Shown piece by piece: positions 12,741-42,773 of a stretch of 64,000 bases of DNA. The notes beneath the pieces are model-generated. The model saw nothing but the letters and a program-made list of their open reading frames with translations, did not search any database and was not told the origin of the DNA. The DNA comes from Branchipolynoe longqiensis. Taxonomy: Eukaryota > Annelida > Polychaeta > Phyllodocida > Polynoidae. Both the position numbers and the translations under genes were made by a program. The stretch covers positions 496,001 to 560,000 of the forward strand of contig CM059203.1 in the NCBI GenBank assembly GCA_030323885.1, written 5' to 3'. Positions within the stretch are counted from its first letter, which is position 1; each line of letters starts with the position of its first letter.

Positions 12741-12771
12741 ACATTAGTTGATTAAGCACGGGAAATTTCAG

Positions 12772-12954
12772 TCGCAGAAGACTGGTCTTCCTCATTCCAC
12801 TGCTCCTTGCCCTGTCCTAATAATGCCGAGCGTCTGGCTAGGAAGCGACAAGTATCAATTTTTTAAGTCATTGGTTTGACTCAACCAGGATTCGAACCCA
12901 TGATCTACCAACATGGGAGACGGACGCTCTAACTCATTCGGCCATCCCGTCTAG
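12772..12954 (-). mobile_element. SINE family S, 5' half
   Basis: On the minus strand: GGGATGGCCGAATGAGTTAG, the B box TGGGTTCGAATCC-like, then the ATTGATACTTGTCGCTTCC body. It is broken at GAAGACCAGT. It lies inverted beside the 12676 fragment. Confidence 0.75.
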
Positions 12955-13074: not shown

Positions 13075-13183
13075 CACTCGCCGCAATATTCAACATTTGT
13101 TATTTGTTGGAGCTTTACGTCCTGTCAACATGTAAGGTCATATCAGGACGGTACTGCACCTGTATGTAGGGTTTTTGTTGTTG

Positions 13184-13400: not shown

Positions 13401-13771
13401 ATACATGTGTATTGATTAGCAATATTGTCAGTGAAACTCGTTAGAACACATGAAGCTGAACACGTCTATGCACGCTGTGTGGTTTCTATTGTCGGGGCAA
13501 ACTGCACACGGCAATATTATATTAAGTCAATTAAGCAGGCATTAGTGGGTCATGGTTAATGTGCCTATGGCTGCAGTTACCCTCGCAGGCATGCAGAAAT
13601 CTGACACAGATTGAAAGGGCATTACATCGAGAATTAGACAGCACTGAAGGGAGAGGAACAGGGAGGAATGACGACAGACAAATGGAGAGAAATAGAGAGA
13701 TAGTTATTGACGAATGGAGAGAAAGGAAGAGAAATATAGAGAATTGAAATGGAGAAAAATGAAGAGAGGCT

Positions 13772-14690
13772 GCCGGGTGAGAGGGACGGGGCAGCCTGCC
13801 GGGTGAGAGGGACGGGGCGGCCTGCCCGGTAAGAGGGCCGGCCTGTCGGGTGAGAGGGACGGGGCGGCCTGCCGGGTGAGAGGGACGGGGCGACTGCCGG
13901 GTGAGAGGGACGGGGCGGTCTGCCCGGTGAGAGGGACGGGGCGGCTTGCCGGGTGAGAGGGACGGGGCGACTGCCGGGTGAGAGGGACGGGGCAGCCTGC
14001 CCGGTGAGAGGGACGGGGCGGCCTGCCGGGTGAGAGGGACGGAGCGGCCTGCCGGGTGAGAGGGACGGGGCGGCCGGCCGGGTGAGAGGGACGGGGCGGC
14101 CTGCTGGGTGAGAGGGACGGGGCGGCCGCCGGGTGAGAGGACGGGTGACTGCGGGTGAGAGGGACGGGGCGGCCTGCCGGGTGAGAGGGACGGGGTGCCT
14201 GCCGGGTGAGAGGGACGGGGCGGGCGGCTGCCGGGTGAGAGGGACGGGGTGACTGCCAGGTGAGAGGGACGGGGCGGCCTGCGCGGTGAGAGGGACGGGG
14301 TGGCCTGCCGGGTGAGAGGGACGGGGCGGCCTGCTGGGTGAGAGGGACGGGGCAGCCTGCCCGGTGAGAGGGACGGGGCGGCCTGCCGGGTGAGAGGGAC
14401 GGAGCGGCCTGCTGGGTGAGAGGGACGAGGCGGCCGGCCGGGTGAGAGGGACGGGGCGGCCTGCTGGGTGAGAGGGACGGGGCGGCTTGCCCGGTGAGAG
14501 GGACGGGGCGGCCTGCCGGGTGAGAGGGATGGGGCGACTGCCGGGTGAGAGGGACGGGGCGGCCTGCTGGGTGAGAGGGACGGGGCGGCCTGCCGGGTGA
14601 GAGGGACGGGGCGGCCTGCCGGGTGAGAGGCCATCCTGCCGGATGAGATGGACGGCCTGCCGGGTGAGAGGGAGGCGTGCCGTGGCGATC
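13772..14690. repeat. 26-bp GC-rich satellite (about 35 units)
   Basis: The unit is GGGGCGGCCTGCCGGGTGAG, then AGGGAC, with variants (GCCCGGT, GCTGGGT, CGACTGCCGGG). CpG density is high. The period is not a multiple of three, but the minus strand lacks stops in every phase, giving the long Pro/Ser/Arg-rich frames at 13531-14634 and 13704-14708. They are not genes. Confidence 0.95.
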
Positions 14691-17716: not shown

Positions 17717-18306
17717 TAGCTGGATTACAGGGCGTTGTGCTACCCTCCCCCTCTGGATGAGACTGGGTGGATCACGTGGCCTGCCTAGACTGCAGTCTGG
17801 TGGTGTGTGTGTGAGGCGGTGTGGGCGGGGGGGTTAGTAATTGGAGGAGGCGTTATCAGCAAATTAAAATGTCGCCACTGAATTGTTCATAGTTCTGTCC
17901 TGTCGATGCCGTCCGCCACTCACTAACACTTCACAGAGCATTCCCACCAGACTATAGTGACGTGGCCCCAGTGTGCTCAATGAAGTTCTTGTGTAGCCCC
18001 CTAGAGGTCTCTATGCAAGCCTATCATGTCCAGCATTTTCATATGCATTGCAATGTTGCATCTTTTTAAAATCAGATATCTGCAAACATGGCCATGTATA
18101 ATGCAGTCATATCTAAGTTATATGTTTTTGGAAAAAGAAGAGAGAAAAACAATGGAAGAAAGAAATGTTTGAAGAAAATTCTAGAATCAGGCAATATCAT
18201 ATAATGCATATTCACCAAATGCATAATATTTTTTATTGAACTGGAATTGTACATGATTACTATTACAACTAATAGTTAATTTATATACCTTATTATCGAA
18301 CACGAC
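17717..18306. other. Unassigned single-copy stretch
   Basis: GTGTGTGTGAGGCGGTGTGG near 17800. Otherwise there is no recognised repeat or gene. Confidence 0.45.
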
Positions 18307-18640
18307 CAGATGGGATGGCCGAATGAGTTAGAGTGTCCGTCTCCCGTGCTGGTAGATCGTGGGTTCGAACCCTGGTCAAGTCAAACCAATGACTTAAAAA
18401 TTGATACTTGTCACTTCCTAGCCAGGCACTCGGCATTATTAGGACAGGGCAAGGACTGGTTGGCTCAGTGTCAGGATAATGTGACTGAGTGGGAAACCAG
18501 GCCATGGTGCCTGCGGCCTGGTTTCCCAGTGGGACAGCACTATAAAGTCGCCATGAGTGTGCACTGTCACAAGTCGGTACCCATCCTTATATGATCTTAG
18601 ATGTTGCTAGGACGTAAAACAACAACAACAACAGAACAAT
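18307..18640 (+). mobile_element. SINE family S, best-preserved full-length copy
   Basis: The tRNA-like head is GGGATGGCCGAATGAGTTAG through the B box GGGTTCGAACCC, followed by GTCAAACCAATGACTTAAAA. The body has CAGTGTCAGGATAATGTGAC and CACTATAAAGTCGCCATGAG. The 3' hairpin is CCTTATATGATCTTAGATGT, then TGCTAGGACGTAAAAC, with an (AAC)n tail. It is a non-coding pol III retroposon that needs a partner LINE. Confidence 0.9.
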
Positions 18641-20392: not shown

Positions 20393-20758
20393 AAGGGCTG
20401 AAGAGTACTTAGTTATATTATATCATATTGTTATTTATTATCGGCGTTATATTATTGTAAAATGGCTGTCTTCTGTCCCAGTTGGTACGCCAGTGTAGGA
20501 CGTTCAGAACATTACCACGTTCAAAACACTACGGTAGTGTTTTGAACCTAAGTTCAAAAGACTATGGTAGTGTTTTGAAATTAGGTTCAAAACACTACTG
20601 TTAAGTTCAAAACACTACCCCTACATATGTCCAAAACACTACCCAAGTTCAAAACACTATCATGATATGGCAGTGGGGGCTGTAATGCCGCAAAATGTAA
20701 CCTACTGATACATATTGGTATACGCTGACCGTACTGTGCATTTGAAGCACGTACTAGT

Positions 20759-20813
20759 TGGTTTGGTTGTTGGGAGTTTTATGTCCTGGCAACATCTAAG
20801 GTCATATCAGGGC
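20759..20813 (-). mobile_element. Hairpin-only SINE retroposon (copy D), 55 bp
   Basis: On the minus strand it contains only GCCCTGATATGACCTTAGAT, then GTTGCCAGGACATAAAACTC and an ACAACCAAACCA tail. It is flanked by a 12-bp target-site duplication with one mismatch, GCACGTACTAGT (20747-20758) and GCACATACTAGT (20814-20825). Confidence 0.75.
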
Positions 20814-20941
20814 GCACATACTAGTAGTAAACGCTGATAGCGCCATGGCGTCTGCACCACATATTAGTATATTCGCTGATGGTGCTGCGGAGATTGAAGC
20901 GCGTATTAGTAGTATAGACACATTGAGTGTTTATGTTTACA

Positions 20942-21125
20942 ACCTAGAACAGTGTCAGGATAAGGTGACTGAGTGGGATATCGGGTCATGGTGCCGGCGG
21001 CCTGATTTCCCAGTGAGCAGCACTTTAAAGCCACTGTGAGTGTGCACTTTCCTAAGTCGGTACCCATCCTGATATGACCTTAGATGTTGCTAGGATGTAA
21101 AACGACAATCAACAACAACAACCCC
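20942..21125 (+). mobile_element. SINE family S, 5'-truncated
   Basis: Starts CAGTGTCAGGATAAGGTGAC and runs to CTGATATGACCTTAGATGTT, then GCTAGGATGTAAAACGAC and an (AAC)n tail. The head is missing. Confidence 0.85.
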
Positions 21126-21481
21126 CACTGTCCCACCCTACTGCATACCTTCCCACCCTACTGCATACTGCCCCACCTTACTGCATACTGCCTCACCCTA
21201 CTACAAATGAAAATGAATATGCAGCAATTATATAAACAAAAATTAGAGTAGTGTTTTGAACTTAAAGGGAGTGTTTTGAACTTAAGGATAGTGTTTTGAG
21301 TACGACCACATTAGTGTTTTGAACCTACCTTCAACTAGGTTGAAAACACTACTGTAGTGTTTTGAACCTAGGTTGAAAACACTACCGTATTGTTTTTGTG
21401 GGGTAGTGTTTTGAACTTACTACATCGGCTCTGTGGATCCCCAGTTGTACCGAAATATGACAGAGAAGATATTCTTTCACT

Positions 21482-21839
21482 GATGAGGCTGTCTATCTAT
21501 GTGTCTCTTGCGATGATGACCTTACAGTTTGAATCTCAACCAAGCCAAACCATGACTAACACAATTTTTACTTGTCACTACCTAGCCAGGTGATCAGCAT
21601 TATTACTAATAATATTAGGATAGGGAAAGGACTGGTTAGCGCAGTGCCAGGATAATGTGGCTGAGTGAGAAATCGGGTCATGGTACTGGCAGTCCTGGTC
21701 TCCCTGTCAGGCAGCACTATAAAGTCGCCATGAGTGTGCAGTATCACAGTCACCATGAGTGTGCAGTATCACAAGTTGGAGCACCTCCTGATATGACCAT
21801 TGATGTTGCCAGGATGTAAAACCCTCAAGAAACAACAAC
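21482..21839 (+). mobile_element. SINE family S, diverged full-length copy
   Basis: The head is strongly diverged (GAGGCTGTCTATCTATGTG..GTTTGAATCTCAACC in the B-box position). The body is recognisable (GATCAGCATTATTACTAATA, ATAATGTGGCTGAGTGAG). A ~30-bp CACCATGAGTGTGCAGTATC block is duplicated at 21727-21775. Tail CTCAAGAAACAACAAC. Confidence 0.7.
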
Positions 21840-21951
21840 TACATAGTCTGCACGTCTGTATCAGGATGAAAATGAGTTAGTTCACCTCTAAGCGGTAGAG
21901 GGCGCTGTGAGCGTCATTTGTAAATAGGTCAAGTTGTACCAACATATGTAA

Positions 21952-22738
21952 AGGCCCTGTCACACTACAATGTATGGCGCCGGTGTGTGCGTAACGTGTT
22001 GAAATAAATTTCAAATCAAAATAGGTCGTCAAACGCCAAACTTTTCACGCTGTGAGGGATAAAAATGGGCGTACACACAATGTAGCACAACGTACATATA
22101 ACGTAGGTAATGTATGCAGAACGTATCTCTGACTTATTGAGAGCGTTCATGTGACTCGCAAAAGGTTTGCATATGCTGATGGTACGCTGACCAACATTAC
22201 GTACGTTACTCCATCGCTAGAAGTATGACGCATATGTTAAGAACGCTGGAGATACGACAGGCATATGTTCGAAGTACATTTGGAGTATGTTATGCAGCCG
22301 TTGGCTGTACGCGGACTGCACGTTCTCAACAGGCTGAATGTATGGCTAACGTGTTCCAACCTATCCCGACCTACCCCTAACATGTGCATAACGTACACTG
22401 ACATACACCACGCATACACTGTTGTTGTTTGTTTGTTTGTTGTTGTTTTACGTCCTAGCAACATCTAAGGTCATATCAGGACGGGGCCACGCATACACCG
22501 AGCATATGAGAAACATATGAGCCATACAGTGACATACGTTGGCAATTTTGAACATGCACAAACTTTTTTTAGCGGCTCGACCTAGGCAGGCCTATGACGA
22601 CCTAAGACGGCGTATCCCGAACGTACTCAAAATATGACCAAAATATACATAATGTATGACACCGTATGCCAATGTGTTGGTCGAAAATCGCATACATCAG
22701 AATACACTAAGGCCATACATCATAGTGTGACAGCCCCT
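21952..22738. mobile_element. Harbinger-type non-autonomous transposon, 787 bp
   Basis: Termini AGGCCCTGTCACACTA and TAGTGTGACAGCCCCT, flanked by TAA (left) and TAT (right). The interior is made of loose GCATACGTT/AACGTATG modules on both strands. A hairpin-only SINE is inserted at 22420-22486. Confidence 0.75.
22420..22486 (-). mobile_element. Hairpin-only SINE retroposon (copy A), 67 bp
   Basis: On the minus strand: CCCCGTCCTGATATGACCTT, then AGATGTTGCTAGGACGTAAA and AC(AAC)n(AAAC)n. It is flanked by a perfect 12-bp duplication CCACGCATACAC (22408-22419 and 22487-22498). No part of the tRNA head or body is present. Confidence 0.85.
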
Positions 22739-22911
22739 TATATTAGAGAGTGTCATTGATGAGCCCGTTAGTCCCTCCGCTGTGGGGGCTGATAGCTGCG
22801 ACTCTGCTCTTTGACAGTGTGCGGCAGCGTCTGACGTGCTTTGGTTTGATCTTCTAGGTGAGTTGAACGCGGAGCGGGCCGCCAAGTCTGACGGTAAGGT
22901 GGCAAAGTGGG

Positions 22912-23045
22912 CAGTTAGTTGTTGGAGTTTTAAGTCCTGCCAACATCTAAGGTCATATCAGGACGGGTACCGCTGTGTGACAGTGTGCACTCATGGTCAC
23001 TTTATAGTGATGCCCCACTGAGAGACCAGGTCACCAGCACCAGTG
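22912..23045 (-). mobile_element. SINE family S, 3' half (left arm of inverted pair)
   Basis: TTGTTGGAGTTTTAAGTCCT, then GCCAACATCTAAGGTCATAT, through GAGAGACCAGGTCACCAGCA. It is immediately followed by the same segment inverted. Confidence 0.8.
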
Positions 23046-23148
23046 GGAAAGCACTATAAAGTCACCACGAGTGCGCACTGTCACACGTCAGTGCCCATCC
23101 TGATATAACTTTAGATGTTGCCAGGACATAAAACTCCAACAACCAACC
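23046..23148 (+). mobile_element. SINE family S, 3' half (right arm of inverted pair)
   Basis: GGAAAGCACTATAAAGTCAC through GATATAACTTTAGATGTTGC, then CAGGACATAAAACTCC and CAACCAACCC. With 22912-23045 it makes a foldback of two SINE 3' halves, tails outward. Confidence 0.8.
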
Positions 23149-23179
23149 CACGTGGTGTGTTTTAAAATAACCTGCTATG

Positions 23180-24655
23180 ACAGTGTGTGTACAGAGGGCC
23201 TGTGGACAGGCCGGGTCGGGGTGAGTGAGTGTGTAAGTGTGTGTGACGGTGTTAGTGTGGCTATGTGAGTGTGTGAGTGTGTGTGTGAGTGTGTGTGTTA
23301 ATGTGAATGTGTGTGATTGAGTTATGTATGAGTGTGTGAGTGAGTGTATGAATGTGAGTGTGTGTGAGTGTATGAATGTGAGTGGGTCGGTGTGTAAGTG
23401 TGTGTGTAAGTGTGTGTGACGGTGTTAGTGTGACTATCTGAGTGTGTGAGTGGGTGTGTGAGTGTGTGTGTTAATGTGAATGTGTGTGATTGAGTTATGT
23501 ATGAATGTGAGTGTGTGTATGAATGTGATGTGTGTGTGGGTGTGTGAGTGGGTGTGTGAGTGTGAATATGTGTGATTGAGTTTTGAATCTGAGTGTGTGT
23601 GTCAGTGGGTGTGATTGTGTGAGTGTATGAATGTGAGTGTGTGTATGAATGTGAGTGGGTGTGAGTGTGTGAGTATGAATGTGAGTGTGTGTGAGTGTAT
23701 GAATGTGAGTGTGTGTGAGTGTATGAATGTGAGTGTGTGGGTGTGTGAGTGGGTGTGTGAGTGTGAATGTGTGTGATTGAGTTTTGAATCTGAGTGTGTG
23801 TGTCAGTGGGTGTGATTGTGTGAGTGTATGAATGTGAGTGTGTGTATGAATGTGATGTGTGTGTGGGTGTGTGAGTCGGTGTGTTAGTGTGAATGTGTGT
23901 GATTGAGTGTATGAATCTGAGTGTGAGTGGGTGTGATTGTGTGAGTGTATGAGTGTGTGTGAGTGGATGAATGTGATGTGTGTGTGGGTGTGTGAGTGGG
24001 TGTGTTAGTGTGAATGTGTGTGATTGAATGTATGAATCTGAGTGTGTGTGAGTGGGTGTGATTGTGTGAGTGTATGAATGTGAGTGTGTGTGAGTGTATG
24101 AATGTGATGTGTGTGTGGGTGTGTGAGTGGGTGTGTTAATGTGAATGTGTGTGATTGAATGTATGAATCTGAGTGTGTGTGTGAGTGGGTGTGATTGTGT
24201 GAGTGTATGAATGTGAGTGTGTGCGTATGAATGTGAGTGTGTGTGAGTGTATGAATGTGATGTGTGTGTGGGTGTGTGAGTGGGTGTGTTAGTGTGAATG
24301 TGTGTGATTGAATGTATGAATCTGAGTGTGTGTGTGAGTGGGTGTGATTGTGTGAGTGTATGAATGTGAGTGGGTGTGAGTGTGTGCGTATGAATGTGAG
24401 TGTGTGTGTGAGTGTATGAATGTGAGTGTGTGTGAGTGTATGAATCTGAGTGTGTGTGTGAGTGTATGGATGTGAGTATGGATGTGAGTGTGTGAGTATG
24501 AATCTGAGTGTGGGTGTGAGTGGGTGTGAGTGTATGAATGTGGGTGTGTGAATGTATGAATCTGAGTGTGTGTGAGTGTATGAATGTGAGTGTGTGAGTG
24601 TATGAATGTGAGTGTGTGAGTGTATGAATGTGAGTGTGTGTGCGTGTGAGTGTCG
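23180..24655. repeat. TGAGTG/TGTGTG microsatellite, about 1.5 kb
   Basis: GTGTGAGTGTATGAATGTGA-type units with higher-order blocks (GTGATTGAGTT.TGAATCTGAG recurs about every 130-180 bp). The His/Thr-rich minus-strand frames at 24005-24700 are artefacts of CACTCA repeats. Confidence 0.95.
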
Positions 24656-24774
24656 ACCTCTATCACCCTGGGCGACTGTTGCGTGCACGCCTAGAACCAA
24701 CCAGCCTCAGGTGCTGCGGTGGAAAACCTCGCAGACTTGAGAATGCTTTGACCTCCGAGTTCCACGCTGCACTA

Positions 24775-24913
24775 AACCTGTGACAGTGCGCACTCATGGC
24801 AACTTTATAGTGCTTCCCCACTGGTGCCAGTGACATGGTCTCCCAGTGGGGCATCACTATAAAGTGACCATGAGTGCACACTGCCACACGTCGGTGCGCG
24901 TCCTGACCTTATA
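24775..24913. mobile_element. SINE family S, foldback of two body fragments
   Basis: GTGACAGTGCGCACTCATGG, then CAACTTTATAGTGC (minus-strand SINE), is followed directly by its inverse GGCATCACTATAAAGTGACC, then ATGAGTGCACACTGCCACA. It is the same type of inverted pair as 22912-23148. Confidence 0.7.
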
Positions 24914-25450
24914 TGTGGCCTTGACAGCTGTCACACTCTGTTCTGATTGTCGCAAACACTATGGGAGAACGATCTTGACCTTTTATGTGACCTTGACAGC
25001 CATCACACTCTACTCTGGACTTCCACCCCTCCCGCCACCTCCTTCTGACACTCTGGATAGCGCCCACAGTTGATTAAAATAAGGGAAACAAGAGACAAAC
25101 TGTGACAATTTGAAAAGGAGAATACTTAGAAAAGACCATTTTCTCTCTTCTATTTTGTTGTTGTGTTTGTGCGACCCAGACACGTAAAAAAAACAACTAA
25201 ATAACCCAAAACAAACCCTCGCGGTTTGAATGCAATGAATCGCGATCCGGACATTTGCTATGTGGGTCACTGCACTCAGTCTCGTGTCACGTGACGTGCT
25301 CGACCACTGAACGCCGCCGACCGGAAGACCGGAAGAGGCCTCAGGTGCTCGATACCCGAATTTTAACATCTCAATCTACCTCAGTAAAACTAAAAGCAGG
25401 GTGGAGCATGGATGGGTCCTCGTCTTTTATCTGGGACACATTCCTTACTT

Positions 25451-25703
25451 AAAGATGCATAGTCCGATGAAACATCACATTTTCAAAACCAAAACAATTA
25501 TCTAGATTTGATTGTACATATCTAACTTAGATAGTAATGAATTTATTAACCATTACTTTCTCCATATAAGGGAATAGTGAGTCAATGTAATAGAACCTTT
25601 TGCTGCTGAAGTCTATGATGTCAGACTTTTGGCGTGCCTGCCAAAAGTAATTTGATCTATTTGCACTTCAAATATCTCAAAAGTTAGCCATTTAAAATCA
25701 AAG
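25451..25703. mobile_element. TTAA MITE family T, truncated copy
   Basis: TTAAAGATGCATAGTCCGAT start, family interior through AAATCAAAGTTACT, then an abrupt change to the 13-bp satellite. The right third is missing. Confidence 0.8.
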
Positions 25704-25792
25704 TTACTGTCACTGTGTAGCGTGACTGTGCACTCTCACTGTGTCACATGACTGCACTGTCACTGAGTAGCGTCAATGTGTAGCGTCAATTT
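25704..25792. repeat. 13-bp GTCACTGTGTAGC satellite, left remnant
   Basis: GTCACTGTGTAGCGTGACTG and similar units. It is the same satellite as 28557-29225, separated from it by a LINE. Confidence 0.85.
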
Positions 25793-28556
25793 TTTAAATA
25801 TATATATTTTTATTGAGGCTGTATTTACACTGTCCATAGCATGTAAGCACGGATATCCAGGCTTGTTTTCAATGCTGGCCAGCTGTAGTGTTGGTGTTGT
25901 CTTACCAAGCAGTAGCTGCTGATAAGTTATTTGATTGTCTGCATTTCAGTAGCAGATATATCTGTTGGTTTTTTTGGCCCCTCTTGGCATTGAATGTTTG
26001 TTCTATTCTTATTACTATGTTAGTTGTTTTCTTAGGGTTCTATGTTAGTGTTTTTTTCTATTTAATTCTATACTAGCCTATGTTATTTACATGTCCATAG
26101 GCCTGTACGTAATAGGTGGTTGAGTTATGTTTGTTTGAATTTGATTTGATTTATATTGTTGTTGGATATGTTATCTGGCTTTTATATTTCCGGTTATCCC
26201 GCCCTGGGCTGTCCCCTTGGGGTGCAGTTCAGTTGGGGTTCCCAGTTTTTATTTTGCACAGATATTTTTCGTACGTTTTTAGGTCAGGGATTTGTCTTTC
26301 TTTCACCGTTTGCGCATTCCATGCCTTGGCGGCCATTTCCAGTGTGCTCCTTTCATGGGCTTTGATCTGGCTTCTGGTCTGCCTTAGTAGTGGTGCTTTG
26401 CTTGCTCTGGTGTCCCTTAGTGGTTGAGTTAGACACTTAATGTCTTGGCTATATCCATATGCTAATGTTTTTAGGTGGATTATCCTTCTGTTTTCTAGTA
26501 GCTTTACTTTAGTTCTTTTGTGTAGGTCATAAGTGGGGTGCAGATTTTCAGGGCCCTATTTTGTAGTATCTGCAATTTTTTAAGTATCTCTTTTTTAGCA
26601 CCCATGTAGATTACATCCCTATAGTCAAAGTAGGGGAGTACCATGCCTTTGAAGATTTTTATTGACATATCTTGTGTCATATAGTTTCTTAGTTTAGCAA
26701 ATAGCCATAGTTTGTGATTTACTTTTTGTATGATTTTAGTTACACACAGATTGTAGTTTAGCTCGCTATCTAGTTCTAGGCCCAGGTATTTGTAGTGATT
26801 TACACTTTCCAGTGTTTGGTTTCCTAGTGTGCATTGTAGGTTTCTTCCTGTGATTGTTGTATGTGAGAAGAGTACAGTTTTAGATTTATTTGCATTGATG
26901 GTTATTTTATTGGACTCACACCAGCCATCCAGTTTTAGCAGGAGGTTGTTCAGTTTGGTTGCTACCTCCTCTACTGTGCTTCCTTCTGCATATACAACAG
27001 TGTCATCCGCATATAGCTGGAGACATTGTGTCTCCAGCCATTTTTCTAGGTCGTTTATGTATAGTATAAATAGTAATGGTCCCAGGACTGATCCTTGGGG
27101 TACACCACAGGTGACAGTTTGTTGGTCTGAGAGTGTACCATTTACTTTAGTTTTTTGCTGCCTGTTGTTTAGGTAGCATTTTATCCAGTTTATTGATTTG
27201 GATTTAATGCCCATGTTGTTTAATTTTCTTATTAATATGCTGTGGTCTACAGTGTCAAAGGCTTTGCTGAAGTCGATGAAGGCTGCTCCAACTAATTTCT
27301 TTTGGTTCAATGATGCCAGCGCATCACTTGTTAGGTTTGCTATTGTTTTTGATGTGGAGTGTAGTTTTCTGAAACTTCCTTGCCTCTTGTTTAGTATATT
27401 GTTTTTTTCCAGGTGCTCATTTATGATGTGCCTGTGGAATATTTGTTCAATTAGCTTGCCTGGTGTTTGCAAGATTGATATTGGTCTGTAGTTCCCCATG
27501 TTTTGTTTGTCACCACTTTTGTAGATGGGGGTGATGGTTGCCTTCCAGGCTTCTTATTTTTGGGAAATAGTAAACTTACATTTTTCCAGAACTTATTTGC
27601 CTTGCTTCCCCAGTCCTTGTCTTGTTTTATTATATATTTGCTTTTTGCTGTCCTCACTGCTTTGAGGGAGTTGTTTCTGGCAGTATTATAGGCCCTTTTA
27701 TCCTCTGGGACTTTAGTACGTTTCACTTTGTCACCTAGCTTTCGTTTTGTTGCGATATGCGTTAACAGTTCCCTGTCTACCCACGGGTCTTGGTTTCTCT
27801 GTATTTTTAGTTTCTTTATGGGACACATTTCATCTAGTGATTGTTTTATTTCTGTGACAATGTTATTCCAGTACATATCAGTGTCATCTCTGTCTGTTGT
27901 GAGGTTGTCTATATTTTCATATAGGTGGTTTTTTAGTGTTTCTTTTGAGTAGTTTTTTAGGGATCTGCCCATCTTATATTTATATTGGCTTGTGCTTTTG
28001 AGTTTTTTCCTCGTTACATATATTAGCTCATGGTCACTTATACCCCAGCTTCTATTGCCCCATTTTGTGGCATGGTTTGAGTTGGTTAGTATTAGGTCAA
28101 TTGTTGAGCTATTGTTTCCTAGTCTTGTGCTGTCTGTAATAAGTTGTTGTAGCCCTAGGATTTTGATAGTGGTTTGTAGCATTAGATTATTTTTGTCGTT
28201 GCTACTGTAGTTTATGTTGAAGTCCCCTGGCACAAAGATTTCTGCATTTGTTAGTTTTCTCACTGCATTTATGCTTTTGTCTAGAGTTTCAAGGAATGTT
28301 TTAATATCCCCGGAGGGTGGTCTGTAGAGGCTTGCTATGGCTATGTTAGCCTGCTTCTCGTTTTTTATTAGGCACCATAGTAGCTCCAGGTGTTCATTTG
28401 AGTTGTTTGCTATTTTTAGGGCCTCAGTGTCTAGATTTTTTTAGGTTTTGCAGTAAATTGCAACACCTCCACCTTTTTTTGTTTGGTTTGCTATGTTAAT
28501 TTGCTGTCTGTCATTACGTACAAGCCTATATCCTTCTATGTTGAGGGTCTGGTCAC
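25793..28556 (-). mobile_element. LINE with AP-endonuclease and reverse transcriptase (degenerate)
   Basis: Minus strand. 28263-27451 (with sequence readable back to about 28550) encodes the end of an apurinic-like endonuclease. It has KKGGGVAIYCK upstream, then GDFN (residues 13-16), STIDLILTNS (53-62) and SDH (76-78). A stop (T*K) interrupts the upstream part near 28440. The reverse transcriptase follows in another frame at 27499-26504: NYRPISIL, FIDFSKAFDTVDH (74-86), GVPQGSVLGPLLF (132-144) and the catalytic YADD (163-166). The frame break between the two lies near 27500. A ~20-bp deletion near 26540 removes LRVDKLQ-type residues kept in the 17-kb copy and shifts the frame again. The remainder (RIIHLKTLAY, ERSTLEMAAKAWNAQ) is readable in the new frame. 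The 3' UTR runs to 25793. The 5' part is lost at the satellite edge. Jockey/CR1/L2-type, clade uncertain. It is a dead copy. Confidence 0.92.
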
Positions 28557-29225
28557 TGTGGTGCACTGTCACTGTGTAGCATCACTGTGCACTGTCACTG
28601 TGTAGTGTGATTGTGCGCTGTCACTGTGTAGCGTCACTGTGCACTGTCACTGTAGCGTCACTGTGTACTGTCACTGTGTAGCGTCAAGGTGTAGCATCAC
28701 TGTGTAGCGTCACTGTGTAGCATCACTGTGTACCATCACTGTGTAGCATCACTGTGTAGCATCACTGTGTAGTGTCACTGTGTAGCATCACTGTGTACTG
28801 TCACTGTGTAGTGTCACTGTAGCATCACTGTGTACTGTCACTGTGTAGCGTCACTGTGTACTGTCACTGTGTAGCGTCACTGTGTACTGTCACTGTGTAG
28901 CATCAAGGTGTAGCATCACTGTGTAGCATCACTGTGTAGCGTCACTGTGCACTGTCACTGTGTAGCGTCACTGTGTACTGTCACTGTGTAGCGTCACTGT
29001 GCAGCGTCACTGTGTAGCGTCAAATGCACTGTCACTGCGCACTGCCACTGTGTCATGTCACTGTGTAGCGTCACTGTGTAGCATCCCTGTGTAGCGTCAC
29101 TGTGTAGCATCATTGTGTAGGTCACTGTGTAGCGTCAATGTGTAGTGTCACTGTGCAGCATCAAGGTGTAGCATCACTGTGTAGCGTCACTGTGTAGCAT
29201 CACTGTGCACTGTCACGGTCACTGT
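28557..29225. repeat. 13-bp GTCACTGTGTAGC satellite, main block
   Basis: ATCACTGTGTAGC and GTCACTGTGTAGC alternate, with GTGCACTGTCACTGTGTAGC longer units. About 50 units. Confidence 0.95.
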
Positions 29226-29309
29226 GCACAGTGACACACCCCTGGTTAAATGTGCACTTGGGCTGTTCAGTGTACCTATGTATCGTGACCACCCTATAGC
29301 TGCGTTACT

Positions 29310-30171
29310 CTGGACACTGGTTACAGTGCGCATGCCCGGCCAGTCCAGGCACGCCCTGGACACTGGTTACAGTGCACATGCCCGGCCCGTCCTGGCATGC
29401 CCTTGACACTGGTTACAGTGCGCATGCCCCACCCATCCCAGCATGCCCTGGACACTGGTTACAGTGTGCATGCCCGGCTCGTCCCAGCATGCCCTGGACA
29501 CTGGTTACAGTGCGCATGCTCGACCCGTCCTGGCATGCCCTGGACGCTGGTTACAGTGTGCATGCCCGGCCCATCCCAGCACACCCTGGACACTGGTTAC
29601 AGTGCGCATGCCCCACCCATCCCAGCATGCCCTGGACACTGGTTACAGTGCGCATGCCTGGCTCGTCCCAGCATGCCCTGGACACTGGTTACAGTGCGCA
29701 TGCCCGACCCCTCCTGGCACCCTGGACACTGGTTACAGTGCGAATACCCGACCTGTCCTGGCATGCCCTGGACACTGGTGGATAGTGCGCATGCCCGGCT
29801 CGTCCTGGCATGCCCTGGACACTGGTTACAGTGCGCATGCCCCACCCATCCCAGCATGCCCTGGACACTGGTTACAGTGTGCATGCCCGGCTCGTCCCAG
29901 CATGCCCTGGACACTGGTTACAGTGCGCATGCCCGACCCCTCCTGGCACCCTGGACACTGGTTACAGTGCGAATACCCGACCTGTCCTGGCATGCCCTGG
30001 ACACTGGTGGATAGTGCGCATGCCCGGCTCGTCCTGGCATGCCCTGGACACTGGTTACAGTGTGCATGCCCCACCCATCCCAGCATGCCCTGGACACTGG
30101 TTACAGTGTGCATGCCTGGCTCGTCCAAGCATGCCCTGGACACTGGTTACAGTGCACATGCCCCGCCTGTC
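29310..30171. repeat. 46-bp satellite with 229-bp higher-order duplication
   Basis: The unit is CCCTGGACACTGGTTACAGT, then GCGCATGCCCGGC..GTCC(T/C)GGCATG. The block 29600-29830 is repeated at 29829-30059, including its unusual members (a short TCCTGGCACCCTGG unit and a GGTGGATAGTGCGC variant). Both strands carry long open frames through this array, which are artefacts. Confidence 0.95.
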
Positions 30172-30175
30172 CCGG

Positions 30176-30519
30176 TGTGGGTGTTTCAGATCTCAGTGGG
30201 TTTGGAGTCTTCGCTTGGGGTTTTGCGCATGCGTCAAAATTGAACATCATTTCAGTGTATTCGATTAACCCACTCGGGTGACCCGAGTGACTTTTTGATG
30301 CATAAATGTGGTCAAGGCATTAACTCTTCAATTCGCTAAATATATATTATTGAGCTAAAATACTTTTAGCAAGCGGCACTTGTTTCTGTCAACTCCACTC
30401 GCAGTGTTCTATATGAATTTCTAGCAACTTGGGTGATGCAAGTCGCCCGGGTCATGTTATTTGCATACGCATAACTCTGAGCGAAGACTCCAAACCCACA
30501 GAGATCTGAAACCGCGACA
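30176..30519. mobile_element. Ginger1-like MITE, 344 bp, inside the 46-bp array
   Basis: Long inverted repeats of at least 55 bp: TGTGGGTGTTTCAGATCTCA at the left and, on the other strand, TGTCGCGGTTTCAGATCTCT at the right, then GTGGGTTTGGAGTCTTCGCT in both. Flanked by CCGG (30172-30175 and 30520-30523). The flanking array unit reads TCCCGGCATG, so one CCGG is the empty site. Interior AT-rich, with GTCACCCGAGTGG-like short palindromes. No coding capacity. Confidence 0.75.
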
Positions 30520-30523
30520 CCGG

Positions 30524-30590
30524 CATGCCCTGGACGCTGGTCACAGTGCGCATGCCCGGCCTGTCCCGGCGCGCCCTGGACGCTGGGCCC
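30524..30590. repeat. 46-bp satellite, resumption after the MITE
   Basis: CATGCCCTGGACGCTGGTCA, then CAGTGCGCATGCCCGGCCTG: about one and a half units. Confidence 0.9.
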
Positions 30591-30749
30591 TGCTTCACTA
30601 CGAGTTCACCAACCCGTTTAACGACCCCTGCACCTACTGCTGGGTCTTCATGTTCAAAACACGTCTAGCAACAGGCGACACCAGCTACTCCGTACTTACC
30701 CACTCATTCCAGGCTTGTTCTGCTTTCCTGGAAATAGTTTTTTTTTTAT

Positions 30750-30945
30750 TAAGCAAGGGACATTGCGGACAATTGGTCTTCCTCATTCCACTGCTCCTTG
30801 CCCTGTCCTAATAGTACTAATACTGCTGAGCGCCAGGATAGGTAGCGACAAGTATAAATTTGTAAATCATTGGTTTGACCCGCGAGTTCATATTCCACAA
30901 CCTACCAGAACGGGAGGCGGACGCTCAACTTATTTGACCAATATT
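30750..30945 (-). mobile_element. SINE family S, 5' half
   Basis: Minus-strand head (TGGTCAAATAAGTTGAGCGT, then CCGCCTCCCGTTCTGG) and body up to GCAAGGAGCAGTGGAATGAG. It breaks at GAAGACCAAT, the same position as the 12772 copy, so the two may share a derived 3' end. Confidence 0.65.
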
Positions 30946-31347
30946 TGTAATATTTGACTGGTGTTTTTTTAAACAACAATTTGGGTAGTGCGGACAATTG
31001 GTTGGTTAACCAACTGTCGTCATTCAGCCTGGGGCGGCCCCTCCCCTCCTCTCCTCTCCCCTAAAACCTGCCTATCTCGATATAATACCTGTGCCAGGTA
31101 TCACAACACTGAATGTGACAATATGCGCAATGACTGCGGGGGGTCACATGACCAGACCACGTGTTCACCACTCAGAACGAGGCCTGCACCTGGGTCATTA
31201 TCCCCGGGAGAGCACAACTAAAGGAATTTGAAACGTCGGTCTGCATCTGTTTTTTAAATATTTAAATATTTATTTATTCTTTTCTTGTTTGTGACTGATC
31301 CTGTCGGGTATTGAGTGGCATACAAATGAGATAAGGCATAATGCACA

Positions 31348-31404
31348 AATCGCGTCCTGATATGACCTTAGATGATGTTAGGACGTAAAACAACAACAAA
31401 CAAA
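31348..31404 (+). mobile_element. Hairpin-only SINE retroposon (copy C), 57 bp
   Basis: AATCGCGTCCTGATATGACC, then TTAGATGATGTTAGGACGTA and AAAC(AAC)nAAACAAA, flanked by a perfect 11-bp duplication CATAATGCACA (31337-31347 and 31405-31415). Confidence 0.85.
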
Positions 31405-31589
31405 CATAATGCACATATTGATGTTTGCCCAGTTTGATGTGACTCTGATCTCTGTGTCGAGTCTGGTGACAGATATCACCATTTGACACCAGATTCCCTC
31501 GGTTATTTGTAATAACTGCATCTGTATTGTGACAGACTGTTAGTGCTGTGACTGTGACTACTCGGTATGATTATGAGGTAATGGGTCGG

Positions 31590-32060
31590 GTTGGATCAAA
31601 GGTCGTGCTATCCACCCTACTATATGGAGCCGAGGCCTGGAGAGTGTACAGACGACAGGTGAAAAAGCTGCATGCCTTCATGATGTGACATCTGCTTTCA
31701 ATCATGAGGCTAACCTGGAAGGACAAAGTGACAAATAAGGAAATACTCGAACAGACGGGGCTGCCCTCTATGGAAGATCTTCTGATCACAAAGAATCTCC
31801 GGTGGACTGGGCACTTCGTGAGGATGTCATCAGACATGCTACCAAAGCAAATCCTCTATTCTCAACTGTCTTCTGGTTACAGAAAGAAAGGGCGCCCTTG
31901 TCTCCGGTTCAAGGATACCATCAAGAGAAACCTGAAGCTGAGAGACATTAAGACCGACTCATGGACGTAACTCTCACAGCAGAGAGCTAACTGGTGACCG
32001 ACAGTCAAGTAATGAAAGCAGTCTTTGTCGCATCGCGACCGACAGCATGATGATGATGGA
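31590..32060 (+). mobile_element. RTE-like LINE ORF2 C-terminus, truncated and broken
   Basis: Reads SKVVLSTLLYGAEAW..YRRQVKKLHAFMM, then a TGA stop (31686-31688), then RLTWKDKVTNKEILEQTGLP, SMEDLLITKNLRWTGHFVRM, LPKQILYSQL and KGRPCLRFKDTIKRNLK. TAA follows (31968-31970), where the 785-929 copy has CAA. LLYGAE(T/A)W and (N)LRWTGHVxRM are hallmarks of the region after the RT core in RTE-like and related LINEs. The 3' end TCTTTGTCGCATCGCGACCG, then ACAGC(ATG/GAT)n, is shared with 785-929 and, inverted, with 35561 and 51055. Confidence 0.88.
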
Positions 32061-32119
32061 TCAAAGGTTACCAAACCAAACAGCTGTAGCATTAAACCCA
32101 CTATATTTATAGTTGCATA

Positions 32120-32446
32120 ACCCAATGGTTTTCAGTTTCTGTAGTTTTTTTTAATATAAATTTATTAAATTGAACGTTATAATCTACCTTACTTCAGTTT
32201 GAAGTAACGTTGATTAAAATGGCTAACTTTTGAGATATTTGAAGTGCAAACATGTGAAATTAATTTTGGCAAGCATGCCAAAACTCCTAACACCATAGGC
32301 TGCTGCAGTAATAGGTTCTATTAAATTGTCTCAGTTTTCCTTTTTATGTGGTGACAAAATTATAAGCGGATCAGTATGCATGGAATCAAATCTAGATAAT
32401 TGTTTTGATTTTGATAAGTTGATGCTTCATCAGATTGTGCAGCTTT
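32120..32446. mobile_element. TTAA MITE family T copy
   Basis: CCAATGGTTTTCAGTTTCTG start (outer left terminus lost), interior TTGGCAAGCATGCCAAAACT, right end CATCAGATTGTGCAGCTTTAA. Confidence 0.8.
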
Positions 32447-32467
32447 AAATTCAGTCTCAATTATTGG

Positions 32468-32630
32468 TCTTCTCTGTGGCGGAGTGGTTAGAGTGTCTGG
32501 CTTTTTCCTAGGTCGAGCTCCTAATCTGACGGTTGGTGGTTCGATGCCAATTTGGATTTCCACCGCTGTGTAAAACTTACAGCGTCATCAAAGGCTGCTT
32601 GCTCTTTTAAATTAAAATTTCTTTTTTATG
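32468..32630 (+). mobile_element. tRNA-derived SINE, family V (second family)
   Basis: Head GTGGCGGAGTGGTTAGAGTG, then TCTGGCTTTTTCCTAGGTCG and TGGTGGTTCGATGCC (B box). The 3' part is ATTTGGATTTCCACCGCTGT, then GTAAAACTTACAGCGTCATC and AAAGGC. A second copy lies at 49806-49980. The 3' end differs from family S. Confidence 0.75.
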
Positions 32631-34180
32631 GACAAGGTATTTACTCTGCCCATAATGTATAAGCTCCCGTGAGGGTGTTTGTTTTCAATGCTGGACAGCT
32701 GTGGTGCTGTCTTGATTTGTTCCTTCACCCAGGAGTGTCTACCTGTGTCTGCTCAGGTCAGCCTTCTGCAACTTTGGTTGTTAGTAATAGCCTATCTTAG
32801 TTTGTTTGTAATTTTCCAGTTTGTCTAGTCGGAGTATGATACCGTAGCCTACTATGTACAGCTACTTGGGAGACATGCAGGCTTGCGGGAGAGGATCCCG
32901 TCCCATTTAGATTTTTTGATCTGTTACAGCATCCTTTCACCTAAACCCTGTCCTTAGATAGTGGACCCATGTGCTAGAACACACTCGGACCCTTTAGGAC
33001 TGCGGCCAGGTGGGATGGCCGTGTTGTTTTCCTAGCCATTTTGTATTTCAGGGTGGATCTGTCCATTTCTCTGTTGATTTGTGCCATTACACATACCCAG
33101 GTGGACTGTGCCATGTGGTGATAGCTTTCCTAATTTGCTTTATACTTAGGAGGGCTAATTTTCCTCTTTTTTTCTGTTTAGTGCCTACCACTTTATCTGG
33201 CCTGTCTTTTGTATTTTGTGCCAGTGTACAGCAAGCAGTAACTGTGCTCAGGGGCAAGTGTGGTTTTGTTGTGTCAGTAAGTAATTGTTTTCTTTAGGAA
33301 TTTTTTTTTTAGTGGTCAGGGTTACGGATTGCCCATAGTTTTACATTTTGTTTATTCCAGCCATGTGCTGCCATGGTTAGTACACTTCTCTCATGTAATT
33401 TCGTGTTGCTTCTTTCTGTTAGGAGTATTGGGGCTGCCATGTGTCTAGTGTCCCTGTGGGGGGGCTACTGTGTAATCCGGTTTCGTGGTGTAGTGGTGTG
33501 CTAGTATTTTCAAGTGCATTTCTCTTCTGCTTGTTAATAGTGTTGCTTTGCATTTTTTGTGTAGTTCTATCATGGGATATCTTTTGTGTACTTGGAGTCA
33601 CATTTTAAGGGATTTATTTTGCATCACTTGTAGTTTATTTAGTAGTTTGGTATTTCCACCCATGTATACATCACCATAGTCGAAGTAGGGAAGGATCATG
33701 CCTTTATATATTTTGATTGCCATGCTTTCAGTCATGTAGTACCTTAGTTTTGCCAGTAGCCATATTTTGTGGTTTGCTTTTTTGATAGTGTTTGTTATGC
33801 AAAGGTCATACTTTAAGTGCCTGTCCAGGTCCACTCCCAGATATCCATAGTTGTCTACCTGTTCTAACTCGTTGTTTGCCAGGAGACATTTTATTTTGTC
33901 ATTACTGGTTAGTCTGGTACCGAATAGCACCGTCTTCGATTTATTGCTATTTATAGTTATCTTATTTAGATGGCACCATTCAGTTAGTTTCGTTAGTGTT
34001 TGATTTAGTTTTGTTTCAATCTCTTCAGATGTTTTTTCCTGCAGTATATTCCACAGTATCATCTGATTATAGTTGGATGTTTTCAGTGTCTAGCCAGTTG
34101 TTTAGATCATTTATATATATGAGGAAGAGGAGCGGTCCCTGGACTGACCCTTGTGGTACACCACAGCTTATCTTTTCCTC
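32631..34180 (-). mobile_element. Second RT-bearing LINE, heavily damaged
   Basis: Minus strand. Near 34170-34110 it reads [20 protein letters not shown], then [15 protein letters not shown]. At the catalytic site the codons are CTA TAA TCA GAT GAT, so YADD has become stop-SDD. The frame continues as a 154-residue stretch at 34062-33598: LNKITINSNKSKTVLFGTRL, then NYGYLGVDLDRHLKYDLCI, ANHKIWLLAKLRYYMTESMA and MILPYFDYGDVYMGG. A ~970-bp damaged C-terminus and 3' UTR follows to about 32631, ending near TACATTATGGGCAGAGTAAA. It is related to, but a different subfamily from, the 25.8-28.6-kb LINE. The 5' part (endonuclease, first RT blocks) is missing. Confidence 0.88.
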
Positions 34181-34374
34181 GCTTGATATGTCTATGTGGT
34201 CTGGGAGGTTAAAAATCCCTTGCGTCAGTAAAAGTGTAGGCTCAGCCTTTCTATCGACAAACTATCTAATGGCGAAAACAAGACTATTCAGACTTATCCA
34301 CGATAGGCAGTATAAATCTTCAAGAATTAAACAAAATTCACGGCAGGGACTCCGGAGAATCAGATTGACGCTTG
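34181..34374 (+). repeat. Dispersed repeat shared with 49975-50125
   Basis: ATGTCTATGTGGTCTGGGAG, then GTTAAAAATC, CTATCGACAAACT and TTATCCACGATAGGCAGTAT, then AAATCTTCAAGA are found at both sites with a few differences. At 50 kb it is followed by a minus-strand tRNA-like head. The identity of the parent element is unknown. Confidence 0.6.
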
Positions 34375-34377
34375 TAA

Positions 34378-34902
34378 TACCCCTGTCACATTACGATGCT
34401 TCTCGCCGGCGCGCCGCCAACGTGCAAAATCACTTTTAATCGTCGAGACACGTCAAACTTTTCGACATCAGCACAACGTATTGGTAGCATGCGGCCGACG
34501 TTGTTGTAAAAGTTTGGCGCACCGTCCTGATATGACCTTAGATGTTCCTAGGATGTAAAATAACAAAAAGCAACAGTTTGGCGCAATGTGTGGGAAAGAC
34601 CCTCACGCGCACGGCGTCTGCCTGGCCTTCGCATAACGTTATTCCAGCGACTCTAACGTATCTCGACGCACCCCTAACATCGCCATAACATTGGCACCTG
34701 CACGTCATCACACGTTGAAAGTTTTGTGCAAGCACAAAACTTCGGCGATTCCCTGACGCGCGCTGCCGACCCTCGCCATCCATCAATAAATACAAATGCG
34801 CGCTGTGCGCGCATACCGCTTCCTTAAGTATCCCGATGTTGTGGCAAAACATCACATACGTCGACGCGCATTGGTGAGAAGCGTCGGAATGTGACAGCCC
34901 CA
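34378..34902. mobile_element. Harbinger-type non-autonomous transposon, 525 bp
   Basis: Termini TACCCCTGTCACATTACGA and, inverted, TGGGGCTGTCACATTCCGA, with perfect TAA flanks (34375-34377 and 34903-34905). The interior is rich in CGTCGACGCG/GGCGCAxxGT modules. It hosts hairpin-only SINE copy B. Confidence 0.78.
34522..34574 (+). mobile_element. Hairpin-only SINE retroposon (copy B), 53 bp
   Basis: CCGTCCTGATATGACCTTAG, then ATGTTCCTAGGATGTAAAAT and AACAAAAAGCAAC, flanked by a perfect 11-bp duplication AGTTTGGCGCA (34511-34521 and 34575-34585). Confidence 0.85.
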
Positions 34903-36732: not shown

Positions 36733-38262
36733 TAGTGAGTGAGTGAGTGTGACTATTTCAGTGAGTGAGTGTGACTTAGTTAGTGAGTGAGTGTGACTTT
36801 GTTGGTGAGTGAGTGACTTTGTTAGTGAGTGAGTGTGGCTTTGTTAGTGAGTGAGTGTGACTTTGTTAGTGAGTCAGTGTGACTATTAGTGAGTGAGTGT
36901 GACTTTGTTAGTGAGTGTGACTTTGCTAGTGAGTGAGTGTGACTTTGTTAGTGAGTCAGTGTGACTATTAGTGAGTGAGTGTGACTTTGTTAGTGAGTGA
37001 GTGTGACTTTGTTAGTGAGTGAGTGTGGCTTTGTTAGTGAGTGAGTGTGACTTTGTTAGTGAGTGAGTGTGACTATTTCAGTGAGTGAGTGTGACTTTGT
37101 TAGTGAGTGCGACGTGGTGGATTCTTTGTTAGTGAGTGAGTGTGACTTTGTAGTGAGTGAGTGTGCTTAGTTAGTGAGTGTGACTTGTTAGTGTATTTGC
37201 TAGTGAGTGAGTGTGACTTTGTTAGTGAGTGCGTGTGGACTTTACTGTTAGTGAGTGAGTGTGACTTTGTTAGTGAGTGAGTGTGGCTTGTTAGTGAGTA
37301 GTGTGACTTTGTTAGTGAGTGAGTGTGACTTTGTTAGGTGAGGTGACTATGTAGGATGTGTGACTTTGTTTAGTAGTGAGTGCGTGTGACTTTGTTAGTG
37401 AGTGAGTGTGACTTTGCTAGTGAGTGAGTGTGACTTTGTTAGTGAGTGAGTGTGACTTTGTTAGTGAGTGAGTGTGACTTTCTTAGTGAGTGAGTGTGAC
37501 TTTGTTAGTGAGTGAGTGTGACTTTGTTAGTGAGTGTGACTTTGTTAGTGAGTGAGTGTGACTTTGTTAGTGAGTCAGTGTGATTTTGTTAGTGAGTGAG
37601 TGTGACTTTGTTAGTGAGTGCGTGTGACTGTGTTGGTGAGTGAGTGTGACTTTGTTAGTGAGTGAGTGTGACTTAGTTAGTGAGTGCGTGTGACTTTGTT
37701 AGTGAGTGAGTGTGACTTTGTTAGTGAGTCAGTGTGATTTTGTTAGTGAGTGAGTGTGACTTTGTTAGTGAGTGAGTGAGTGTGACTTAGATAGTGAGTC
37801 AGTGTGACTTTGTTGGTGAGTGAGTGTGACTTTGTTAGTGAGTGAGTGTGACTTTGTTAGTGAGTGAGTGTGACTTTGTTAGTGAGTGAGTGTGACTTTG
37901 TTAGTGAGTGCGTGTGACTTTGTTGGTGAGTGAGTGTGACTTTGTTAGTGAGTGAGTGTGACTTTGTTAGTGAGTGAGTGTGACTTTGTTAGTGAGCGTG
38001 ACTTTGTTGGTGAGTGAGTGTGACTTTGTTAGTGAGTGAGTGTGACTTTGTTAGTGAGTGAGTGTGACTTTGTTAGTGAGTGAGTGTGACTTTGTTGGTG
38101 AGTGAGTGTGACTTTGTTGGTGAGTGAGTGTGACTTTGTTAGTGAGTGAGTGTGACTTTGTTAGTGAGTGTGTGTGACTTTGTTGGTGAGTGAGTGTGAC
38201 TTTGTTAGTGAGTGAGTGTGACTTTGTTAGTGAGTGAGTGTGACTTTGTTAGTGAGTTAGTT
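36733..38262. repeat. 22-bp satellite (about 70 units)
   Basis: The unit is GTGAGTGAGTGTGACTTTGT plus TA. 18- and 26-bp variants differ in the number of GAGT repeats. The block at 37100-37380 is unusually degraded (indels). Confidence 0.95.
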
Positions 38263-42473: not shown

Positions 42474-42773
42474 GTTTGTTTGTTGTTGTTTTACGTCCTA
42501 GCAACATCTAAGGTCATATCAGGATGGGTACTAACTTGTGACAGTGCACACTCATGTTGACTTTATAGTGCTGTCCCACTGGGAAACCAGGCCGCCGGCA
42601 CCATGATTTGGTATCCCACTCAGTCACATTATCCTGACACTGAGCACACCAGCCCTTGCCCTGTCCTAATAATGCCGGGCGCCTGGCTAGGAAGCGACAA
42701 GTATCAATTTTTAAGTCATTGGTTTGACTCGACCAGGGTTCGAACCAATGACTTAAAAATTGATACTTCTCAG
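42474..42773 (-). mobile_element. SINE family S, head replaced by an inverted body piece
   Basis: The minus-strand SINE reads normally from the (AAC) tail to the B box GGGTTCGAACC. Then the sequence turns around: AATGACTTAAAAATTGATAC on the + strand is the same body segment inverted. The tRNA A box is missing. Confidence 0.75.

Follow-up and report, generated by a model that had tools for sequence, protein, structure and literature searches.

Hairpin-only insertions in the window

The stretch of DNA analysed here, which we call the window, comprises 64,000 nucleotides of the polychaete Branchipolynoe longqiensis (contig 18, positions 496001-560000, of a 1.85-Gb genome in 1914 contigs), in which one family of short interspersed elements (SINEs) is abundant. 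Four of its copies consist of only the last 53-67 bp of the SINE, that is, the 3' hairpin and its tail, and lie between 11-12-bp target-site duplications, given here in element orientation. Copy 1 (minus strand, 20759-20813, 55 bp) has no extra bases 5' of its 38-nt hairpin region (20776-20813), which is followed by the tail TCCCAACAACCAAACCA; its 5' duplication ACTAGTATGTGC (20814-20825) has one mismatch to the 3' duplication ACTAGTACGTGC (20747-20758). Copy 2 (minus strand, 22420-22486, 67 bp) carries CCCC ahead of its hairpin region (22445-22482) and an AAC-rich tail behind it, with GTGTATGCGTGG as both the 5' (22487-22498) and the 3' (22408-22419) duplication. Copy 3 (plus strand, 31348-31404, 57 bp) is made up of AATCGC, the hairpin region (31354-31391) and an AAC-rich tail between two copies of CATAATGCACA (5' at 31337-31347, 3' at 31405-31415), and copy 4 (plus strand, 34522-34574, 53 bp) of CC, the hairpin region (34524-34561) and a tail between two copies of AGTTTGGCGCA (5' at 34511-34521, 3' at 34575-34585). 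The duplications of copies 1-4 score 8, 12, 11 and 11, respectively, while random pairing of flanks among 23 window copies reaches a score of 8 in 6.7% and of 11 in 1.2% of cases. A preliminary description of this DNA had reported the same four copies and duplications, which we confirm to the base, and its claim that their 5' ends are nearly uniform at the base of the stem holds in that all four start 0-6 nt above the hairpin. A fifth hairpin copy without a SINE body, at 13114-13151 on the minus strand, has no clear duplication.

All 23 SINE copies taken from the window carry the 3' hairpin, and the 18-mer GTCCTGATATGACCTTAG has 21 window matches with up to three mismatches versus 0.1 expected. 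A consensus of about 315 bp, built from nine longer copies, consists of a tRNA-like head showing GGTTCGAACCC in the alignment (judged by eye), a body, and from position 278 the hairpin GTCCTGATATGACCTTAGATGTTGC(T/C)AGGACGTAAAAC, followed by an AAC-rich or TCCAACAACC-like tail. The reference full-length member (18304-18620, plus strand; consensus 1-315, 92% identity) is flanked by the 12-bp duplication TATTATCGAACA. ARAGORN found no tRNA in the window, an Rfam scan of the window at the gathering score gave 0 matches, and searches of viral and prokaryote contigs with an exact 22-mer returned 0 and 0 matches. Among the other 19 window copies, four reached a duplication score of at least 9: the full-length one at 18583, that at 19056, which has an insert, that at 42525, whose 5' piece is inverted, and that at 38348, which lies in a minisatellite.

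The insertion at 34522 recurs at the same site in another locus of this genome, L019:1645 (loci outside the window are given as Lnnn:position and window copies as W), where the flanks are 68% identical over 592 bp, and by eye only also in L035, which indicates an old insertion within a host sequence that is itself repeated. This host sequence extends over 34381-34897 and L019:1452-2040 (68% identical), each member bearing the same hairpin-only insertion, and L035 resembles a third copy of it.

Hairpin copies without a SINE body are frequent across the genome

The wider sample consisted of 25 unselected 10-kb stretches from contigs 1, 2, 3, 5 and 7 and four more from contigs 4, 6, 8 and 9, which with the window amount to 354 kb (64 kb plus 290 kb); the expectation of a peak of truncations at the hairpin base was recorded after the first 21 of the 25 stretches had been seen. 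At an E value of 1e-3 this sample holds 123 hairpin copies, and each was classed by how well the 90 bases upstream of its hairpin aligned locally with the SINE body. The resulting scores have two peaks, with 29 of the 123 copies at 10-18 (body-less), 93 at 25 or higher (a single copy, L028:3558, at 25), and one at a locus edge; of shuffled upstream sequences, 95% score no higher than 18 and the highest scores 28.

The 29 body-less copies were sorted into classes by eye. Eleven have a close-set duplication, namely the four window copies, L004:874, L010:9034, L013:3825, L013:4135, L017:4014, L022:4351 and L026:7708, the weaker cases being L010:9034 (imperfect), L022:4351 (only 7 bp) and L026:7708 (in a minisatellite); these eleven include both tail types, AAC-rich and TCCAACAACC-like. 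One (L019:1645) is the 34522 insertion again, and seven belong to local tandem arrays (four units in L027, a pair in L022, and L010:9106). In another five (L017:2497, L021:9004, L013:4311, L015:3863 and L004:297) the copy is degenerate, interrupted or nested with antisense repeats, and the last five are taken up below. A twin-priming origin of L021:9004, with the hairpin base as the junction, was considered and rejected; because the inverted piece bears its own hairpin, it is taken to be an older antisense SINE. By eye, the array at L027:6570-7110 (minus strand) repeats a diverged hairpin-plus-tail unit about seven times, at intervals of about 67 bp, and two-unit tandem cases occur at L022:5368/5442 and L010:9034/9106.

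An exact 25-mer core of the hairpin occurs at 65,951 places in the genome, and at 347,693 places when up to three mismatches are allowed, with 0 matches for the control in both searches. As a second set we took the first 60 of 100 listed places in listed order, 160 bp each, all exact and on the plus strand of contig 1, from a list that omits some exact-core places. Thirteen of these 60 are body-less (score 16 or lower) and 47 bodied (score 30 or higher). A duplication scoring at least 9 within 30 bases accompanies seven of the 13 body-less copies (L031, L036, L040, L057, L073, L082 and L089, the duplications of L082 and L089 lying in simple-sequence surroundings) and one of the 47 bodied copies (L085, owing to a neighbouring SINE repeat), while mismatched pairs reach a score of 9 in 1.3%. 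With the duplicated locus L064/L065 counted once and L035, another copy of the 34522 insertion, left out, the 13 places represent 11 new events.

A perfect 38-base hairpin lacks the body in 12 of 30 copies by hand count (5 of 10 in the 354 kb and 7 of 20 in the 60 places). Genome-wide, GTANCY stands directly above the core at 36,045 of the 65,951 places, compared with 37 of the 47 bodied copies in the second set, from which we estimate that about 31% of exact-core copies are body-less, with a range of 15-39% arising from the uncertainty of 37/47. Body-less copies are a wider class than proven hairpin-only insertions, as the presence of duplications in seven of the 13 shows. For annotation, an estimated share of this size matters, as fragments so short are easily lost.

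Structure of the 18 best-supported insertions

Eighteen duplication-flanked hairpin-only insertions have starts that span 7 nt at the hairpin base. Six of them come from the homology-blind scan described below, seven from the 30-base scan, two from a homology-boundary scan (L004:874 and W20813) and three were recognized by eye (L010:9034, L022:4351 and L026:7708). The number of bases between duplication and hairpin, compiled by hand, is 0 in three copies, 1 and 2 in one copy each, 3 in five, 4 in four, 5 in one and 6 in three. The 12 elements that were measured are 51-69 bp long, each with the 38-nt hairpin region preceded by 0-6 extra bases and followed by the tail, and hold no internal promoter, unlike an autonomously expressed SINE. 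In many copies the extra 5' bases are CCC, ACC or CC and agree with the SINE, where ACCC stands above GTCC in 54 of the 93 bodied copies; in some (CCCC, TCCC, ATAC, ATC, GTGGCC and AATCGC) they do not fit the SINE.

Duplications range in length from 7 to 17 bp, and their median is 11 in hairpin-only and 12 in full-length copies (P = 0.14, lengths entered by hand), a similarity consistent with one machinery. The target-site duplication typical of a 5'-truncated product of target-primed synthesis is thus present in 18 copies, and the scatter of truncation points is absent. The elements do not resemble miniature inverted-repeat transposable elements or other DNA transposons, since the duplications vary in length and the element ends are the hairpin base and an A-rich tail; no terminal inverted repeats were noted among the element ends, where no dedicated inverted-repeat scan was made. 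That the copies merely spread as passengers of other repeats is scarcely credible to us: the 34522 insertion is indeed carried by more than one member of its host repeat, and L064/L065 are one duplicated locus, but no two of the 18 duplication-flanked copies share a duplication.

Relatives without the insertion were found for some loci. L013:3825 sits in another repeat, and 13 matches span its joined flanks without the insert; the eight of the 13 that were displayed lie at eight different places, are 72-82% identical and have a single target copy each. For W20813, two overlapping matches to the joined flanks were found at L004:9756-9948, one of them with a 3-base gap, while L026:7708 lies in a minisatellite that has insert-free units. 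The joined flanks of L010:9034 have a single match, at their own locus, and the remaining eight of the 12 loci had no match to joined flanks. The preliminary description had named loss of the duplications on alignment with related loci as evidence against its claim; wherever alignment was possible no such loss was seen. The window has its own member of the repeat that hosts L013:3825, at 12740-12951; its part 12804-12951 (minus strand) matches SINE consensus 6-150, and from its sequence this repeat may be a second SINE family with a different 3' end.

Truncations cluster at the hairpin base

Homology ends were analysed in the first 314 kb of the sample. By BLAST homology, 47 copies start between consensus positions 58 and 281, L021:2 (locus edge) and L022:5442 (tandem unit) having been removed beforehand. 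Sixteen of the 47 start in consensus 272-280, which is 9 of 224 positions (P = 2e-11 if starts are uniform and independent, which two of the sixteen are not: L019:1645 has the insertion of 34522, and L022:5368 belongs to a tandem array and owes its duplication score to a microsatellite). A duplication score of at least 8 was obtained for 8 of these 16 copies versus 2 of the 31 that start elsewhere. L013:4135 was mis-chained to an unrelated piece and hence counted as full length. A cluster of ends at consensus 46-57 was considered as a second truncation site and rejected, as by eye most of these copies have a full-length head of a variant type with a longer tRNA arm.

To locate ends without reference to homology, the 420 bases above 120 of the 123 copies (three lacked flank) were searched for a second occurrence of the 3' flank with a score of at least 9, counting only the best match per copy and taking the expectation from mismatched pairs. 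This revealed eight ends at 0-8 bp above the hairpin versus 0.53 expected, or six (P = 2e-5) without the two that are other repeats, L002:1048 and L010:9106; the bin is if anything low, because W20813 and L004:874 were assigned to other repeats. There were 12 ends at 9-250 bp versus 6.2 expected (P = 0.02), several of which are tandem or SINE-internal repeats, and 22, uncurated, at 251-420 bp versus 4.8 expected. Duplication-flanked copies are therefore mostly either full length or cut at the hairpin base, with L014:649 and L004:2335, both near consensus 84, as clear exceptions.

Taken together, fixed truncation at the hairpin base is real and recurrent. The suggestion in the preliminary description that the phenomenon is general is upheld by the 16 of 47 truncated starts at the hairpin base and by the 18 duplication-flanked copies starting 0-6 nt above the hairpin. 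It had also proposed that a smooth genome-wide distribution of truncation points would speak against a fixed end; the distribution in the 314-kb and 354-kb samples is peaked. The hairpin base is not the sole truncation point, as 31 of the 47 copies start elsewhere by homology, some of them being head variants and not true truncations. These 31 copies, and the fact that copies shorter than the hairpin go undetected, are what could be said for ordinary random truncation or later DNA deletion, the pattern then being a by-product of how copies were chosen. We regard this as very unlikely: of the 47 ends, 16 fall into only 9 of 224 positions, which, subject to the two dependent copies, argues against random truncation, the close-set duplications argue against later deletion, and the recurrence of the pattern in 60 places taken in listed order argues against an artefact of copy choice.

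A model for release of the reverse transcriptase

When folded alone, the GTCC form of the hairpin region is predicted to form a hairpin at -10 kcal/mol (z = -2.7), and window copies 2, 3 and 4 fold with z-scores of -2.5, -5.0 and -1.8. In an alignment of 51 copies, the predicted ensemble contains a stem at about 252-275 beside the hairpin. By analogy with known systems the hairpin here is presumed to be a recognition hairpin for a long interspersed element (LINE), as in zebrafish L2 elements (ZfL2-1 and ZfL2-2), where according to an excerpt of PMC4176376 the 3' stem-loop is bound by the region of the ORF2 protein between the endonuclease and the reverse transcriptase. In the model that we propose, a LINE-type reverse transcriptase would begin by target-primed reverse transcription on a SINE transcript, copying the tail and then the presumed recognition hairpin. 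On leaving the hairpin it would meet the 3' arm of the stem at about 252-275, at positions 275-276, and the template would be released there, so that synthesis would end at about consensus 275, where untemplated bases could be added. SINE-matching C's (up to three), followed in some copies by bases foreign to the SINE, are what would be expected of such a stop with untemplated addition. What is observed are the ends, the duplications, the narrow start position in 18 insertions, the distribution with peaks at the hairpin base and at full length, and the insertion-free relatives of one host repeat; the LINE enzyme, target-primed synthesis, the SINE transcript as template and a stop set by the junction of the hairpin and the 252-275 stem are inferred. 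A precedent exists in Magnaporthe, where LINE enzymes are described in part of PMC2104539 as quitting their templates time and again at the same sites, just upstream of which hairpins are predicted; together with the predicted adjoining stems this favours release at the junction of the hairpin and the next stem, which we consider the probable, though by no means certain, origin of the insertions.

Several observations weigh against this reading. CCCC precedes GTCC in three body-less copies (W22482, L004:874 and L007:5915) and in none of the 93 bodied ones, and a SINE template alone would not yield it. Five of the 29 body-less copies (L007:5915, L014:4472, L022:8997, L025:5729 and W13149) show no duplication and are not otherwise accounted for. 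The ATCC form (z = -0.4) and window copy 1 (z = -0.5) fold no better than shuffled sequences; the minimum-energy fold of the whole SINE lacks the hairpin, which is present in the fold of the last 165 nt, and the minimum-energy structure of the 51-copy alignment also lacks it, with the hairpin 278-308 present in about half of the ensemble. The share of body-less copies did not differ significantly between G and A at position 278 (13/66 vs 3/32 by hand count, P = 0.25), and the idea that loss of the 278-308 pair lowers this share was accordingly rejected. Copies truncated within the hairpin nearly escape these searches, which leaves the far side of the peak uncovered, and L015:3863, with an 8-bp duplication and a start near 285, may be one such truncation. 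A partner LINE with the same 3' end was not recognized in the 354 kb; the whole genome was not searched for one. Finally, the mechanism, in which we place moderate confidence, derives from sequence and predicted folds.

The CCCC could instead be LINE sequence if the insertions were extreme 5' truncations of a partner LINE that has just the hairpin in common with the SINE. We consider this improbable, as no longer LINE-derived hairpin copy was recognized among the 123, 93 of which run into the SINE body, and as the five unexplained body-less copies share no upstream sequence by eye. A motif scan of the 354 kb found nine reverse transcriptase-like reading frames, three of them with a hairpin within 2.5 kb downstream; these three hairpins were examined as partner-LINE 3' ends and rejected, each belonging to a bodied SINE copy. 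Two stretches of the window, 26507-27553 (minus strand) and 33922-34166, are fragments of one reverse transcriptase-like family, 69% identical over 246 bp, and the fragment at 26507-27553 has no hairpin within 2.5 kb downstream.

The main rival to enzyme release is that the SINE transcript is cut at the base of the hairpin and that the resulting RNA of 50-70 nt is the molecule retroposed, the enzyme running to its 5' end. The narrow 5' end of the insertions, the scarcity of duplication-flanked ends between the hairpin base and full length, and the SINE-matching C's that give way in some copies to non-SINE bases, a pattern like that of a template end, would all fit such an RNA. Against it, no processing signal was identified, and untemplated bases are also possible when an enzyme stops early. 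The sequence decides neither for a reverse transcriptase stop nor for a short RNA; we lean towards release, and hold the short RNA to be a distinctly less probable but serious possibility. Should it exist, a discrete hairpin-plus-tail RNA would be a retroposing species of its own and, next to LINEs and SINEs, a third size class. It would account for at least a third of the family's youngest insertions and leave 3' modules for building new SINEs, a scenario that we put forward only tentatively.

Relation to known retroposons

Truncation of LINEs and SINEs is usually read as loss of processivity at varying points. The parent family resembles the stringent-type SINE/LINE pairs, in which a tRNA-type SINE carries a LINE-derived tail, in its tRNA-like head as judged by eye, body, predicted 3' hairpin of about 40 nt, short-repeat tail and, in some copies, duplications, whereas the hairpin-only copies have neither promoter nor body. 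Recognition of the 3' stem-loop by the ORF2 protein is reviewed in PMC3747384, a section of which also describes LINE copies as truncated at varying positions. Like 5'-truncated LINE and SINE copies, the hairpin-only copies have an intact 3' end, have lost the 5' part and are flanked by a target-site duplication, but while the usual LINE truncations are scattered, most duplication-flanked truncations here fall within one 7-nt span. Template-switch chimeras such as Magnaporthe MGL/WEIRD/Mg-SINE share the recurrent leaving sites with predicted hairpins upstream (PMC2104539, in the part cited above), and mammalian U6/L1 chimeras are likewise attributed to template switching in an extract of PMC13174262; chimeras of this kind carry a second RNA, however, whereas hairpin-only copies abut the target directly. 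Tailless retropseudogenes are also short retroposed pieces, of tRNA or SINE RNA (PMC3747384, same section), but lack a 3' repeat tail, whereas hairpin-only copies keep just the 3' end and tail. A phrase search of literature titles and the beginnings of abstracts, with most subscription papers outside its scope, found no report of hairpin-only SINEs or of a fixed SINE truncation, and a literature search with sequence strings returned only papers on unrelated subjects.

The hairpin-only copies are products of 5'-truncated retroposition with an unusually sharp and frequent stop. Judging from them, one retroposition event may carry as its complete cargo no more than a 3' hairpin and tail, and one stop site may be in repeated use; truncation would then be a structure-set release after the recognition hairpin. 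If this is true, a bare recognition hairpin could spread by itself, and the same step could permit a switch to another RNA, making a new SINE with a LINE-type tail, so that the origin of LINE tails in SINEs would become directly testable through these copies. Mollusc SINEs and MetaSINEs are reportedly built of exchangeable modules with LINE-like 3' ends (work attributed to Matetovici 2016 and Nishihara 2016).

Other repeats in the window

The SINE copy at 42488-42771 (minus strand) has consensus 76-107 inverted before 57-315, is flanked by the duplication ACCTTCCTG, and is possibly a twin-priming or snap-back product. Two palindromic head-to-head pairs of 5'-shortened SINEs, at 22927-23134 and 24776-24919, are joined at consensus 200/221 and are mutually opposite in orientation, as if one fold-back unit had been copied. 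Long minisatellite arrays occupy 4223-9077, 13770-14630, 28568-30173, 36738-38261, 52337-53302 and 56861-58006.

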